The position numbers and the translations under genes are program-made. Below, piece after piece: positions 5,466 through 10,518 of a stretch of DNA of 64,000 nt; the stretch's first letter is position 1, and every line of letters starts with the position of its first letter. The notes under the pieces were generated by a model. The model did not search any database and was not told the origin of the DNA. It saw nothing but the letters and a program-made list of their open reading frames with translations. The stretch comes from Prolixibacteraceae bacterium (GTDB lineage: Bacteria; Bacteroidota; Bacteroidia; Bacteroidales; Prolixibacteraceae), in assembly GCA_028377305.1 (NCBI GenBank), contig JAONJW010000003.1, positions 1 to 64,000 on the forward strand. The letters run 5' to 3'.

Positions 5466-6629
5466 TTATACTGTTTCGATCATCGCAGTCACTTTATTAA
5501 GCTTTTCAGCCAATTGATCTAATACATCATTAGGCTTTGCGAAACATATACGTATTAAGTGACTTTTTCTGTTCTTTTCATGTTGGAATACAGAAACAGG
5601 AATTGTAGCAATGCCATGCTGCTTAATCAATCTTTCTACAAACTCAATGTCCGGGTCACTAGAAATCTTACTGTAATCAAGGATTTGGTAATACGTGCCT
5701 TTACAAGGAACAAACTCAAATTCACTATCTTTTATTAAGCGTAAGAAATAGTTTCTTTTCCCTTGGTACATTTCAGAAAGTTCACCGTTGTCATCAAATA
5801 AAGAGAGATATTCAGCTAAGGCCAATTGTGCTGGAGTATTTGTACTTTGTCCATTATACGCTTGAGCCTTTACATATTCCTTTATTAATTTCTCAGGGCC
5901 TAATACATAAGATATACCCCATCCATTAATACGGAAACTAGGACCAAAGTCCGAAACGATCAATGTTCGAGATTTCAATTGTTCGTACTGTGCAAAGCTG
6001 TGATGCTTCTCTGTATCAAAGACAATCTTCTCAAAAGATTCATTTCCAACAATAATTATGTTGGTGCCATTGGTAAGCTTGATAAGGCTCTTAATATCCT
6101 CATCTGTCATGACTCTACCCGTTGGGTTTTGAGGTGAATTTAGAATGATCATTCTTGTTTTTGTAGAGATCATCTTCTTTACCTCTTCCCATTCTATTTG
6201 GAAACTTGGTGCTTTAAGACCAATGAATCTTGCACGTCCTCCGTTACTCTCTATAGGAGGTATAAAGGATTCGATAGAAGGTTCAAAAACGATAACTTCA
6301 TCACTCTCTTTAATGAATGTATTAATTGCAGTAGCTATACTTTGAATCGTACCAGTAGATATGGTAATCTCTGACTCTTCATTATAGTTTGAACCATATT
6401 CATTATTAATTCTTTGCGTAATTTGTTTGCGCAAAGGTGCAACGCCATTTAATGGCGCAACATTATTAACTCCTTCTTTCATGTATTTCTGAACAAGATC
6501 AATAAGCTCGTCAGGACATACGATGTCAGAAGAAGGAAGAGCTACATTTAATGCATTGTACTCTTCGGCAAGTTTCTTAATGTATGCGAAAATATTATTT
6601 CGCGAAAGAGGAATTTTTGCTGTTGCCAT
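5466..6629 (-). CDS. Class I/II aminotransferase homologue lacking the PLP lysine (probable pseudoenzyme)
   Basis: Counting from the ATG at 6629, which gives MATAKIPLS and is more natural than the longer track start, the protein has 387 residues. It aligns along its whole length with methionine aminotransferases of the YbdL type: GVAPLRKQI (62-70), STGTIQSI (91-98), NSPQNPTGRV (164-173), NTPAQLALAEYL (264-275) and IRICFAKP (359-366). Key cofactor positions are changed. The SDEVYEHI motif of YbdL reads GNESFEKI here, so the pyridine-nitrogen Asp is Asn196 and the Tyr is Phe199. The SFGKT lysine motif reads DFGPS, giving Pro230 in place of the Schiff-base lysine. GWK/R becomes GWG. The carboxylate-binding Arg360 remains. 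Ordinary PLP transamination is therefore unlikely. A structural, regulatory or ligand-binding role is inferred. Confidence 0.85.
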   Translation of the reverse strand: MATAKIPLSRNNIFAYIKKLAEEYNALNVALPSSDIVCPDELIDLVQKYMKEGVNNVAPLNGVAPLRKQITQRINNEYGSNYNEESEITISTGTIQSIATAINTFIKESDEVIVFEPSIESFIPPIESNGGRARFIGLKAPSFQIEWEEVKKMISTKTRMIILNSPQNPTGRVMTDEDIKSLIKLTNGTNIIIVGNESFEKIVFDTEKHHSFAQYEQLKSRTLIVSDFGPSFRINGWGISYVLGPEKLIKEYVKAQAYNGQSTNTPAQLALAEYLSLFDDNGELSEMYQGKRNYFLRLIKDSEFEFVPCKGTYYQILDYSKISSDPDIEFVERLIKQHGIATIPVSVFQHEKNRKSHLIRICFAKPNDVLDQLAEKLNKVTAMIETV

Positions 6630-6816: not shown

Positions 6817-7491
6817 CTAAGCAAAGATTTGTTTGACAACATCGAGTGATTTAATCTTAAGAGAGATATTTAAAGTACGTTCGATATGAATAATAATAAT
6901 TTCAATCCATTTATTCCTTATCCCTCTATTCCACCTTAAACTATTCAATAAATCGAACTGAAGTTTATTACAAGAGAAGTTTGTTGAAGCTAATTCGTTG
7001 TTTACAATATATTGTTGAAGCTTATCTTGAGTGAGTTCATAACCTTGTATCTTGATTAACTGGAAAAGAAATACGATATGAAAATTCTCTGAACCTTGGT
7101 CGTTAATATCGAGTAAGTTGAATGCATTGACGACAAATTCATGCAGAATGTTTGTGTGAGTTTCCTCCACCGTTAATTTATTTAGAACCTCACACAAGAA
7201 AAATGCCTGACTCGATTTCATTATATCATATGGAATCGCATGATAACTATTCGTAAGGCTTGCTTCTTTTAGTTGGTAGAGATTTTGTCTCATACTTTGT
7301 TTGACCAATACACATTGTATTTGGTATGAAGGTTGTAGATAGGCACGAAGGGCTTTCCCTTTTTTTGTTGATATCCCTGAAACAATACAGTTGACCTTAC
7401 CTAAGGTCGGAGTGAGTATGTGAACAATTTTTTTACTCGAGGTATAGTCTGTCATACTCAATACAACTGCTTCTGTATGTAATGGCTCCAT
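6817..7491 (-). CDS. recO: DNA repair protein RecO
   Basis: A 224-residue protein with the RecO N-terminal OB fold (HTEAVVLSMTDYTSSKKIVHILTPTLGKVNCIVSG) and the helical C-terminal domain. The region SYHAIPYDIMKSSQAFFLCEVLNKL matches the family. RecO anneals single-stranded DNA and, with RecR, loads RecA on SSB-coated gaps (RecFOR pathway). The C-terminal zinc cysteines found in some RecO proteins are not apparent, which is common in Bacteroidota. It begins seven bases after the end of the porZ-like gene, so they probably share a transcript. Confidence 0.9.
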   Translation of the reverse strand: MEPLHTEAVVLSMTDYTSSKKIVHILTPTLGKVNCIVSGISTKKGKALRAYLQPSYQIQCVLVKQSMRQNLYQLKEASLTNSYHAIPYDIMKSSQAFFLCEVLNKLTVEETHTNILHEFVVNAFNLLDINDQGSENFHIVFLFQLIKIQGYELTQDKLQQYIVNNELASTNFSCNKLQFDLLNSLRWNRGIRNKWIEIIIIHIERTLNISLKIKSLDVVKQIFA

Positions 7492-7498
7492 GCGATAT

Positions 7499-9814
7499 TT
7501 ATTTTACAATGAGAATCTTGTTCTTTCCTGTAATCGTTCCGTCGGGATTAGAGACAAGAATCTGATATACACCAGATGCGGCTTTTTGTCCAAATCGATT
7601 TACACCACCCCATTTTACTCGCCCTCCTTTAGACTGTAATATCGCAACAAGGGTATTACTAGAATTTACAATTCTTATTTCACTATCTAAAGCCAGTCCA
7701 TCTATCGTTAGTTCTGTATGTTTCGATAGTTGATAAGGACTCGGATATACTGTTATATTTTCCAAAGTTAATGATCCTCTTGTTGCATCTCCTTGTAATG
7801 AAACAACACCTTGTTTTGTCGCAATAAAGACCTCTCCAGTAACAGGTTCAACAATCACTTGTCTAATGTCATTGGTTGGAAGGGGACTATTGTCGGTATC
7901 AAAATGTTTAAGCTGAGCACTACCGTCCGGATTGAACAGATACACACCACTATTCTTTGTGCCGACCCACTTTTGGTTCCCTTCATCTATTGCAATCGAA
8001 GAAATTTGTTCACTCTCTAGTATTGGATGGAAAAGGTTATCTCCAAGATCAAGTGATGGTTGGAATGCGTAAAAATCCTGTTTGGTTAATGAGTTTTCAG
8101 GATAAGCATACACAAAAACTCCTTTATTGGTGCCCAGCCAAATCTGTCCATTTTTATCTAGGACCATTTGTGTTATCATACTTGGATCGGTGAATGAGTT
8201 TTCCGTGTTGTTTTGGAAAAAAGCTCTTACTTTAAGGATACGTTTTTTACTTCCATCCTTGTTCATTACAAATATCTCAGGGGTACCAACTTTAGGCACC
8301 CAAATCTGATTACCTACAATGTAAGGTCGTTTTACCCAATCATAACTATCTCCGTCTGGCGATGTAAAGGCGGTCCATTCTCCATTCTTGTAACGATGCA
8401 AGAACTTACGTGTAATGGTGTTGGTTACCCAAAGTGTTCCATCATAATCGATATCCATACCTCCTATTCTAGTGTATCTTCCTGTAGGGTTTGCATTTTG
8501 TAATGTACTATTGGTATAGAAGAACACATTCTTACATCGATTATCTTGTATTTCCATTATTCCCGAACCATAAGAGCTTATGTATAGGTGTTTAGGATCT
8601 CTTGGATCCACCACGATATCGGTTAAATCATTGAATCCACGATCTAGATTATCTTCAATATCATCTCTGTTGTAAGTAGTCCACTCATTATCTGGGGAAT
8701 TAAAAGTAGTATAAAGGAAAGGGTTCCATGCATTCCACCACTCATTCTTTAAGAAGCCATTAATGATGTATAGATCATCATTAAAACTTCTCATATTTTG
8801 AAAGTCCACGTTATTGGGACCTGTAATTTTGGTTTGCACTCCAGTCTTTAAATCTTTAGATACGATAAGACCATTAAGATCTGAACCAATTGAGAGTCTA
8901 CCCTCTGCATCTATATTTACATCATTGAATATAATATTATGTGATTCATCATTCCATTGTAGTGACTGGATTTGCTTCACTTTATTCCAATCTCCTTTAA
9001 AAATGTTCAGTTTATCTCTTTCCACAATAAGCAACTGATCATTTGCCACCTTTAATGATCTCAAAGAGGATGTAATAAATGGGCTTTTTGATAAACTCCC
9101 TTGCGTCAATAAATAAAGACTGTTGGTTCCAGAACAAGCTACATAGAGTTGATGTTTGTAGCATTCAATATCGGAAAGTTGTACACCGTTATAGGATGGA
9201 ATAAAGTTCCAATTTTTATAATTCATCTTATTGGTGTCTGAAGACATTGATGCGACATAAATTCCGTTTTTATTGATTGCATAGATATAATCTTCGTATA
9301 TACATAGGTCAAGAATCGGAATCTGAGAACTATTGCCTCCAACAATCCATGTCTCTTTTATCTCCACCTTCTTTGCATCAATCCAAACAATCCCAAAATC
9401 ACAGCACAGATAGATATCGTTCTTGTTCACATAGATGTTTGATATCTTTTTGTTCTTTAGGGAAGACGAGTAGATAATATCATCAATAACATAAACCGTT
9501 CCATCATCAATGATGTTTACCCCTCCATTTTTATAACCAATCACAATTTTATTACCTACATGGTCTAGGGTGGTGGGTGAGGTGAAGGACAGTCCGCTTA
9601 CTTTTGAGAAAATATCAACTTCTTGATGTTGAACATCCAGAACAAGTAATCCTGTGTTAGACAATCCAATCACTTTATTGTCAGACGAGATGACTCGTTT
9701 AATCGAAGAATAACTATCATATACGGTCCATCGCTCGGCAAATGATGTAGAGGACAAACCGAAGAATAGCATAAAAAGTAGGATGTTAAAACACTTGTTA
9801 TGGATGTTCTGCAT
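7499..9814 (-). CDS. porZ: PorZ-like two-beta-propeller protein of the type IX secretion system
   Basis: From the ATG at 9814 the protein has 771 residues. A longer start at 9835 is possible, but the shorter one gives a normal signal peptide ending in SFA. The mature start WTVYDSYSSIKRVISSDNK and repeated propeller strands (VIGLSNTGLLVLD, KIVIGYKNGGVNIID, GQIWLGTNKGVFVY, QKWVGTKNSGVYLF) match PorZ and two-component-regulator propellers. The last 90 residues (ENITVYPSP to NKILIVK) resemble a T9SS C-terminal sorting domain. PorZ is the surface component that delivers A-LPS to the PorU sortase in Porphyromonas. The length and domain order fit, but a generic propeller protein is the alternative. 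Confidence 0.8.
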   Translation of the reverse strand: MQNIHNKCFNILLFMLFFGLSSTSFAERWTVYDSYSSIKRVISSDNKVIGLSNTGLLVLDVQHQEVDIFSKVSGLSFTSPTTLDHVGNKIVIGYKNGGVNIIDDGTVYVIDDIIYSSSLKNKKISNIYVNKNDIYLCCDFGIVWIDAKKVEIKETWIVGGNSSQIPILDLCIYEDYIYAINKNGIYVASMSSDTNKMNYKNWNFIPSYNGVQLSDIECYKHQLYVACSGTNSLYLLTQGSLSKSPFITSSLRSLKVANDQLLIVERDKLNIFKGDWNKVKQIQSLQWNDESHNIIFNDVNIDAEGRLSIGSDLNGLIVSKDLKTGVQTKITGPNNVDFQNMRSFNDDLYIINGFLKNEWWNAWNPFLYTTFNSPDNEWTTYNRDDIEDNLDRGFNDLTDIVVDPRDPKHLYISSYGSGIMEIQDNRCKNVFFYTNSTLQNANPTGRYTRIGGMDIDYDGTLWVTNTITRKFLHRYKNGEWTAFTSPDGDSYDWVKRPYIVGNQIWVPKVGTPEIFVMNKDGSKKRILKVRAFFQNNTENSFTDPSMITQMVLDKNGQIWLGTNKGVFVYAYPENSLTKQDFYAFQPSLDLGDNLFHPILESEQISSIAIDEGNQKWVGTKNSGVYLFNPDGSAQLKHFDTDNSPLPTNDIRQVIVEPVTGEVFIATKQGVVSLQGDATRGSLTLENITVYPSPYQLSKHTELTIDGLALDSEIRIVNSSNTLVAILQSKGGRVKWGGVNRFGQKAASGVYQILVSNPDGTITGKNKILIVK

Positions 9815-9839
9815 AATTAATATAGATTGGAACAAGTAG

Positions 9840-10430
9840 TTATGATTTTTTTGTGTTATAGGTACTAAGAAACAAACTCAACTTTCTAACAGCTACACCA
9901 CGATGACTAATAAGATTCTTTTCTGAGCTAGTCATTTCTGAAAAAGTTCTACTGTAACCATCGGGTTTGAATATTGGATCATATCCAAAACCATCTTCTC
10001 CAGATCGTTCAGTTGTTATTTCCCCTTTTACAATACCTTCAAACTCATACTTCTCATCATCAATAATCAATGAGATTACTGTGCGAAACTGGGCTTTTCG
10101 ATTTTCACTTCCTTTGAGTTCATGTAGAAGTTTGTGCATATTGTCTTCTGCCAAACAATCGGGTCCAGCATATCTAGCAGAGTACACTCCAGGAGCGCCA
10201 TTTAATGATTCAACTTCTAAGCCCGTGTCATCGGAAAAACAGTTTTGACCATACTTATCATGAATATAGGTTGACTTTATTAAGGCATTCCCCTCAAGTG
10301 TTAAGGCGGTTTCAGCGATCTCTTCATGACAGTTAATGTCATGAAGACCCAATACCTGATAACTATCCCCAACCATCTCTTGAATCTCTTTTAGCTTATT
10401 GGGATTGTGTGTCGCGAATATGATTTTCAT
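9840..10430 (-). CDS. rdgB: RdgB/HAM1-type non-canonical purine NTP pyrophosphatase
   Basis: From the ATG at 10430 the protein is [17 protein letters not shown]..., 196 residues, which matches the usual RdgB start. The 28 extra residues in the track are not family-like. Conserved parts are [57 protein letters not shown] and [11 protein letters not shown]. The enzyme hydrolyses ITP, dITP and XTP to monophosphates and keeps deaminated purines out of DNA. The gene lies 25 bases before the porZ start, in the same direction. Confidence 0.93.
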
Positions 10431-10518
10431 GATTACATATGATTTAAATGAGAAATGCCACAAATATAAACGTAATATTTGTGGCATTTGGTATATATGC
10501 AATGATCTAATCACTTAT

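Follow-up and report, generated by a model that had tools for sequence, protein, structure and literature searches.

The window, i.e. the whole analysed stretch of 64,000 nucleotides from a Prolixibacteraceae bacterium, carries on its minus strand a gene for a protein of the class I aminotransferase fold, preceded on the same strand by recO, porZ and rdgB (Table 1). Its frame runs from the ATG at 6629 to a stop codon ending at 5466 and gives 387 residues with no internal stop; the limits assigned by the preceding sequence-only reading were correct, the strand now being specified as minus. Concerning the placement in databases, the protein exceeds the gathering score of the Pfam family PF00155 covering the class I/II aminotransferase fold (134.9 bits vs. 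19.7) and matches the NCBIfam model NF006569 of methionine aminotransferase in full length with 392.1 bits, i.e. under the curated cut-off of 420. The phmmer search aligned residues 4–378 with the E. coli YbdL (PDB code: 1u08; E 4.7e-76), to which the protein is closest within the class I aminotransferases, and the full-length homology of the YbdL type recognised by that reading thus holds. In the same alignment, Pro230 falls opposite the Schiff-base Lys of 1u08, which is no artefact of the alignment since the region around the motif is ungapped. An AlphaFold2 model, built from an 18-sequence alignment restricted to close relatives of the protein, was of moderate quality (pLDDT 64.6; pTM 0.57), its best match in the PDB being again YbdL 1u08 (E 8e-33; TM 0.73); the prediction thus suffices to confirm the fold, but gives no usable geometry of the pocket.

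Table 1 Features of the pseudo-aminotransferase locus in the window (counts of residues refer to 65 distinct Prolixibacteraceae sequences)
Feature	Coordinates	Strand	Basis or conservation
Predicted pseudo-aminotransferase, YbdL-type class I fold, 387 aa	5466..6629	-	translation, NCBIfam and PDB matches, family alignment, tree
Codon of Arg360, retained (active enzymes: substrate α-carboxylate Arg)	5550..5552	-	Arg in 64/65
Codon of Gly238 (active enzymes: Lys/Arg to PLP phosphate)	5916..5918	-	Gly 59/65, Lys/Arg 0/65
Codon of Pro230 (Schiff-base Lys position)	5940..5942	-	Lys in 0/65
Codon of Phe199 (active enzymes: Tyr to PLP ring)	6033..6035	-	Phe in 60/65
Codon of Asn196 (active enzymes: Asp to pyridine N)	6042..6044	-	Asp 35/65, Asn 25/65
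Codon of Asn164, retained	6138..6140	-	Asn in 64/65
Codon of Ile95 (active enzymes: phosphate-loop Thr)	6345..6347	-	Thr in 4/65
recO, directly upstream, same strand; syntenic context, functional partnership not shown	6817..7491	-	adjacent in 79/81 genomes
porZ (T9SS PorZ); syntenic context	7499..9835	-	NF052228, E 1.6e-151
rdgB/HAM1, non-canonical purine NTP pyrophosphatase; syntenic context	9840..10514	-	gene order kept in most genera examined

The roles of residues were assigned from the description of class I enzymes, according to which the Schiff-base Lys is strictly invariant in every catalytically active aminotransferase, the pyridine nitrogen is held by an Asp, the ring is touched by an Asn and a Tyr, the phosphate by an Arg and by a Tyr of the other subunit, and the substrate carboxylate is held by a C-terminal Arg (PMC9309667). 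From these residues, the window protein lacks the Schiff-base Lys as well as the pyridine Asp, the ring Tyr and the phosphate Arg/Lys, the substrate α-carboxylate Arg being present as Arg360. Both the translation and the 1u08 alignment agree with the sequence-only reading on Asn196, Phe199, Pro230, Gly238, Arg360 and the motif NSPQNPTG. The loss of three cofactor contacts, claimed there as a joint one, is confirmed and goes even further—the phosphate-loop Thr is replaced by Ile95, the ring-stacking Tyr by Ile119, and the Tyr whose phosphate contact serves the other subunit by Val57—but the losses were not all simultaneous, position 196 being still occupied by Asp in many family sequences. Of the ten cofactor and substrate contacts checked, the protein keeps only Asn164, Ser226 and Arg360. 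No obvious substitute Lys was seen, the lysines conserved in the group being mostly common in active relatives, too.

Using the threshold of E ≤ 1e-60, a homologue was found in 81 of 140 Prolixibacteraceae genomes, covering 16 of the 23 genera; it should be noted that the residue counts are based on the 65 distinct family sequences and not on every one of the 81 genomes, with some sequences coming from a second collection. Position 230 is occupied by Pro (55 sequences), Ala (5), Thr (2) and His, Ser or Arg (1 each), but never by Lys, and Tyr is found at position 199 in three sequences, i.e. 62 of the 65 are without it. The lysines at positions 230 and 238 are thus gone clade-wide and Tyr199 nearly so, the loss of Asp196 being partial. 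Ser226 and Gly236 have been retained in all 65 sequences, with Gly229, Gly236 and Trp237 present in 64–65. The three congeners, with 85–91% identity to the window protein, and all the other recO-linked Prolixibacteraceae sequences inspected are without the Schiff-base Lys as well, and its absence is therefore due neither to chance nor to a sequencing error. Within the family, a Lys-bearing copy was encountered only once, as a canonical YbdL that one genome (G093; L058) possesses besides the pseudoenzyme, at an unrelated locus. The gene is missing in about 40% of the family genomes, so its function is dispensable.

The dN/dS values (Nei–Gojobori) are 0.02–0.09 within genera; in the genus g17, the gene's own values (0.055–0.088) are similar to those of the neighbouring genes. 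For the window's genus, where many of the synonymous distances approach saturation, the comparison of identities is the safer one, giving between congeners 83–91% for the pseudo-aminotransferase, 73–89% for RdgB and 52–73% for both RecO and PorZ. The sequence-only reading had regarded the gene as maintained rather than decaying and had proposed looking for a Pro conserved across a clade and for dN/dS below 1; both were found, the family clade being supported by 99/98 in a tree with the active-site columns masked. A decaying remnant, which might be suspected from the lost active-site residues and from the genera without the gene, is virtually excluded by these dN/dS values and by the frames being intact across 16 genera. 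The clade thus exhibits what is expected of a pseudoenzyme, i.e. the catalytic residues lost, with the fold and the frame under purifying selection.

With regard to the neighbourhood, the order rdgB–porZ–recO–gene is kept on one strand in most genera examined, and the only two deviations from the position directly downstream of recO concern a locus at a contig edge and a genome in which recO was not detected. When 30 recO loci were read in genomes lacking a match, no trace of the gene was seen behind recO, rdgB, porZ and recO usually being still there. The PorZ match is absent in four genomes carrying the gene (G082, G087, G100 and G101), and PorZ is found in many genomes and genera without it. 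Neither PorZ nor RecO therefore needs the gene, and the gene does not need PorZ; conserved gene order alone is weak evidence of shared function. An accessory role in type IX secretion, suggested by the neighbouring porZ and the order kept in most genera, is accordingly most improbable and was rejected as the main role, since each of the two, PorZ and the gene, is gained or lost irrespective of the other. Two of these genomes without a PorZ match, G087 (L080) and G082, are small ones from the genus g9; in G087, porZ is missing between rdgB and recO, and the pseudo-aminotransferase has been kept (rdgB–recO–gene). The RecO of the window, which evolves unusually fast in its genus, matches RecO_C in its C-terminal part only to residue 154 of 224.

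The nearly universal adjacency to recO could also mean that the protein is a pure structural scaffold, its dimer surface binding RecO or another protein and the old active site being irrelevant. The fold-core positions fixed while the cofactor site was replaced, as well as the different parts of the site dismantled in different lineages, are in favour of this explanation, which we nevertheless consider rather unlikely, because Asn164 and Arg360 are fixed in almost all family sequences, RecO evolves much faster than the pseudo-aminotransferase in the window's genus, and recO persists in genomes without the gene. A second possibility, that of a dead subunit paired with an active aminotransferase, has a precedent in the PLP fold in SPTLC1/LCB1 with LCB2 (PMC3794620) and could draw on the fact that, in this fold, the site of one subunit is partly formed by residues of its partner. 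It is, however, very unlikely and the active partner was rejected: at E ≤ 1e-60, no other YbdL-type protein was detected in the window genome (77% complete) and the three congeners (99%), the next homologue in the former being only 28% identical, a canonical copy accompanies the gene in the single family genome mentioned above, and the position of Tyr57, a residue serving the other subunit, is occupied by Val in the window protein.

The history outside the family was followed in the YbdL-type loci of about 70 other Bacteroidales genomes and 29 loci from elsewhere in the class. The canonical YbdL sequences sampled keep Lys, Asp and Tyr; those of the 29 loci, read from a class-wide profile search with little sampling outside Bacteroidales, are all canonical lysine-bearing enzymes. 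All the lysine-less sequences sit in one divergent YbdL-derived group of 50 rows (support 97/87), some members of which come from complete single-contig genomes. In the tree built with eight active-site columns masked, the Prolixibacteraceae clade joins the clade with Lys replaced by Glu (L147–L150) at 80/92, a placement that cannot be regarded as firm. The state of the Schiff-base Lys has changed at least six times on the Bacteroidales tree, always within the divergent group; the losses in L136, L142, L224 and L233 come each from a single sequence and could include errors, those in L232 and L235 supporting each other. A single common clade of all lysine-less sequences was rejected (p-AU 4e-35). 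The order in which the contacts were lost differs by lineage: in L232 and L235 (both from the family f97) and L233 (f11), the Schiff-base Lys is replaced by Ile or Val with most other PLP contacts intact; f97 further has Arg360 replaced by Gly, with two members still possessing the Lys. A carboxylate ligand therefore cannot be the function common to the whole divergent group.

Among the PLP-fold enzymes of other classes, there are some that lack the Lys. Together with the three group relatives that have lost the Lys and kept most other contacts, they would speak for non-covalent binding of PLP or PMP with altered chemistry. This is highly doubtful for the window protein, however, because in the Prolixibacteraceae clade the phosphate Lys/Arg, the phosphate-loop Thr, the Tyr and often also the Asp have gone, the lost contacts being often replaced by hydrophobic residues.

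Another neighbour found in the divergent group is a GH3-like protein (PF03321), directly downstream of the gene in 10 of 22 divergent loci; these adjacencies are not independent events, since they are restricted to three families. Among 35 canonical loci, there was one distant GH3 match on the opposite strand. The acyl-amido synthetase of this type lies directly downstream on the same strand in L114, L133, L144–L146, L154, L157, L221, L224, L232 and L235, and in the Prolixibacteraceae genomes of the genus g2, a GH3-like gene is located about 6 kb upstream. Such enzymes are able to conjugate amino acids with acyl groups (PMC12493201) and would therefore fit as a partner of an amino-acid-binding protein, but the presence of GH3 in the family, in 135 of 140 genomes whether the gene is there or not, does not follow the gene. 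The GH3-like synthetase as a partner was thus set aside as no more than a lead. As to the divergent group as a whole, often linked to recO or GH3, it may tentatively be proposed—with somewhat less than an even chance—that it took on a non-catalytic function before losing PLP chemistry, the Lys then disappearing on at least six independent occasions (replaced by Pro/Ala, Glu, Arg, Ile or Val). This would leave a natural series of intermediates between the enzyme and a protein free of the cofactor, in which the window protein would be one of the most eroded members.

Based on the above results, the loss of the PLP site, the wide retention of the gene, the strong purifying selection and the fixed place behind recO can be regarded as established at the sequence level, and we infer with high confidence that the protein performs no PLP-dependent catalysis. 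It very probably fulfils a non-enzymatic, as yet undescribed job under strong selection. The reading we favour, as reasonably probable, is a pseudo-aminotransferase without cofactor that has been preserved for binding or as a scaffold and may still hold a carboxylate ligand by means of Asn164 and Arg360. A YbdL-like aminotransferase encoded behind recO would have ceased to bind PLP in the Prolixibacteraceae ancestor or earlier, by changes of the Schiff-base Lys to Pro, the phosphate Lys to Gly, the phosphate-loop Thr to a hydrophobic residue and the Tyr to Phe, the protein then being kept with the aminotransferase fold and without the cofactor. The old substrate cleft with Asn164 and Arg360 would bind a ligand resembling an amino acid or a keto acid, and the protein would work by binding, as a sensor, regulator or scaffold on a partner, and not by catalysis. 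Such binding, within the old cleft or close to it, is suggested by Asn164, Ser226 and Arg360 being the only contacts left and being fixed in the clade, and its chances appear about evenly balanced; Asn164 and Arg360 may instead have been kept for structural reasons. The repurposed binding or regulatory protein proposed by the sequence-only reading is hence compatible with the lost PLP site and purifying selection, but remains a matter of inference.

The database label likely for these proteins, "PLP-dependent aminotransferase", is very probably wrong for a whole bacterial family. Documented PLP-fold pseudoenzymes are few, and here one group of genes offers a natural series of losses—without the Lys but with most contacts kept, without the substrate Arg but with the Lys kept, and with nearly everything lost—so that biochemistry can test directly in what order an enzyme of this kind is dismantled around its cofactor, and what stays. 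Pseudoenzymes of the PLP fold as such are already known (Rv3778c and SPTLC1); in the open-licence literature, no description was found of the Prolixibacteraceae clade or of any lysine-less pseudo-aminotransferase of the YbdL type or class I. SPTLC1/LCB1 of serine palmitoyltransferase is a PLP-fold protein without the Lys and with a non-catalytic role (PMC3794620), but it works with an active paralogue, none of which was found for the window protein. Rv3778c from Mycobacterium tuberculosis, a homologue of PLP enzymes, is expressed and presumed non-catalytic (PMC12910592); it likewise lacks the covalent Lys, but is related to cysteine desulfurases and not to the YbdL-type class I enzymes. YbdL itself, the methionine aminotransferase from E. 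coli (1u08; NF006569), exhibits the same full-length fold with ~34% identity in the structural alignment, although its Schiff-base Lys, phosphate Lys, ring Tyr, pyridine Asp, ring-stacking Tyr and phosphate-loop Thr are all replaced in the window protein, which scores under the NF006569 cut-off; common to both are the Asn of the NPxG motif, Asn164 and Arg360.
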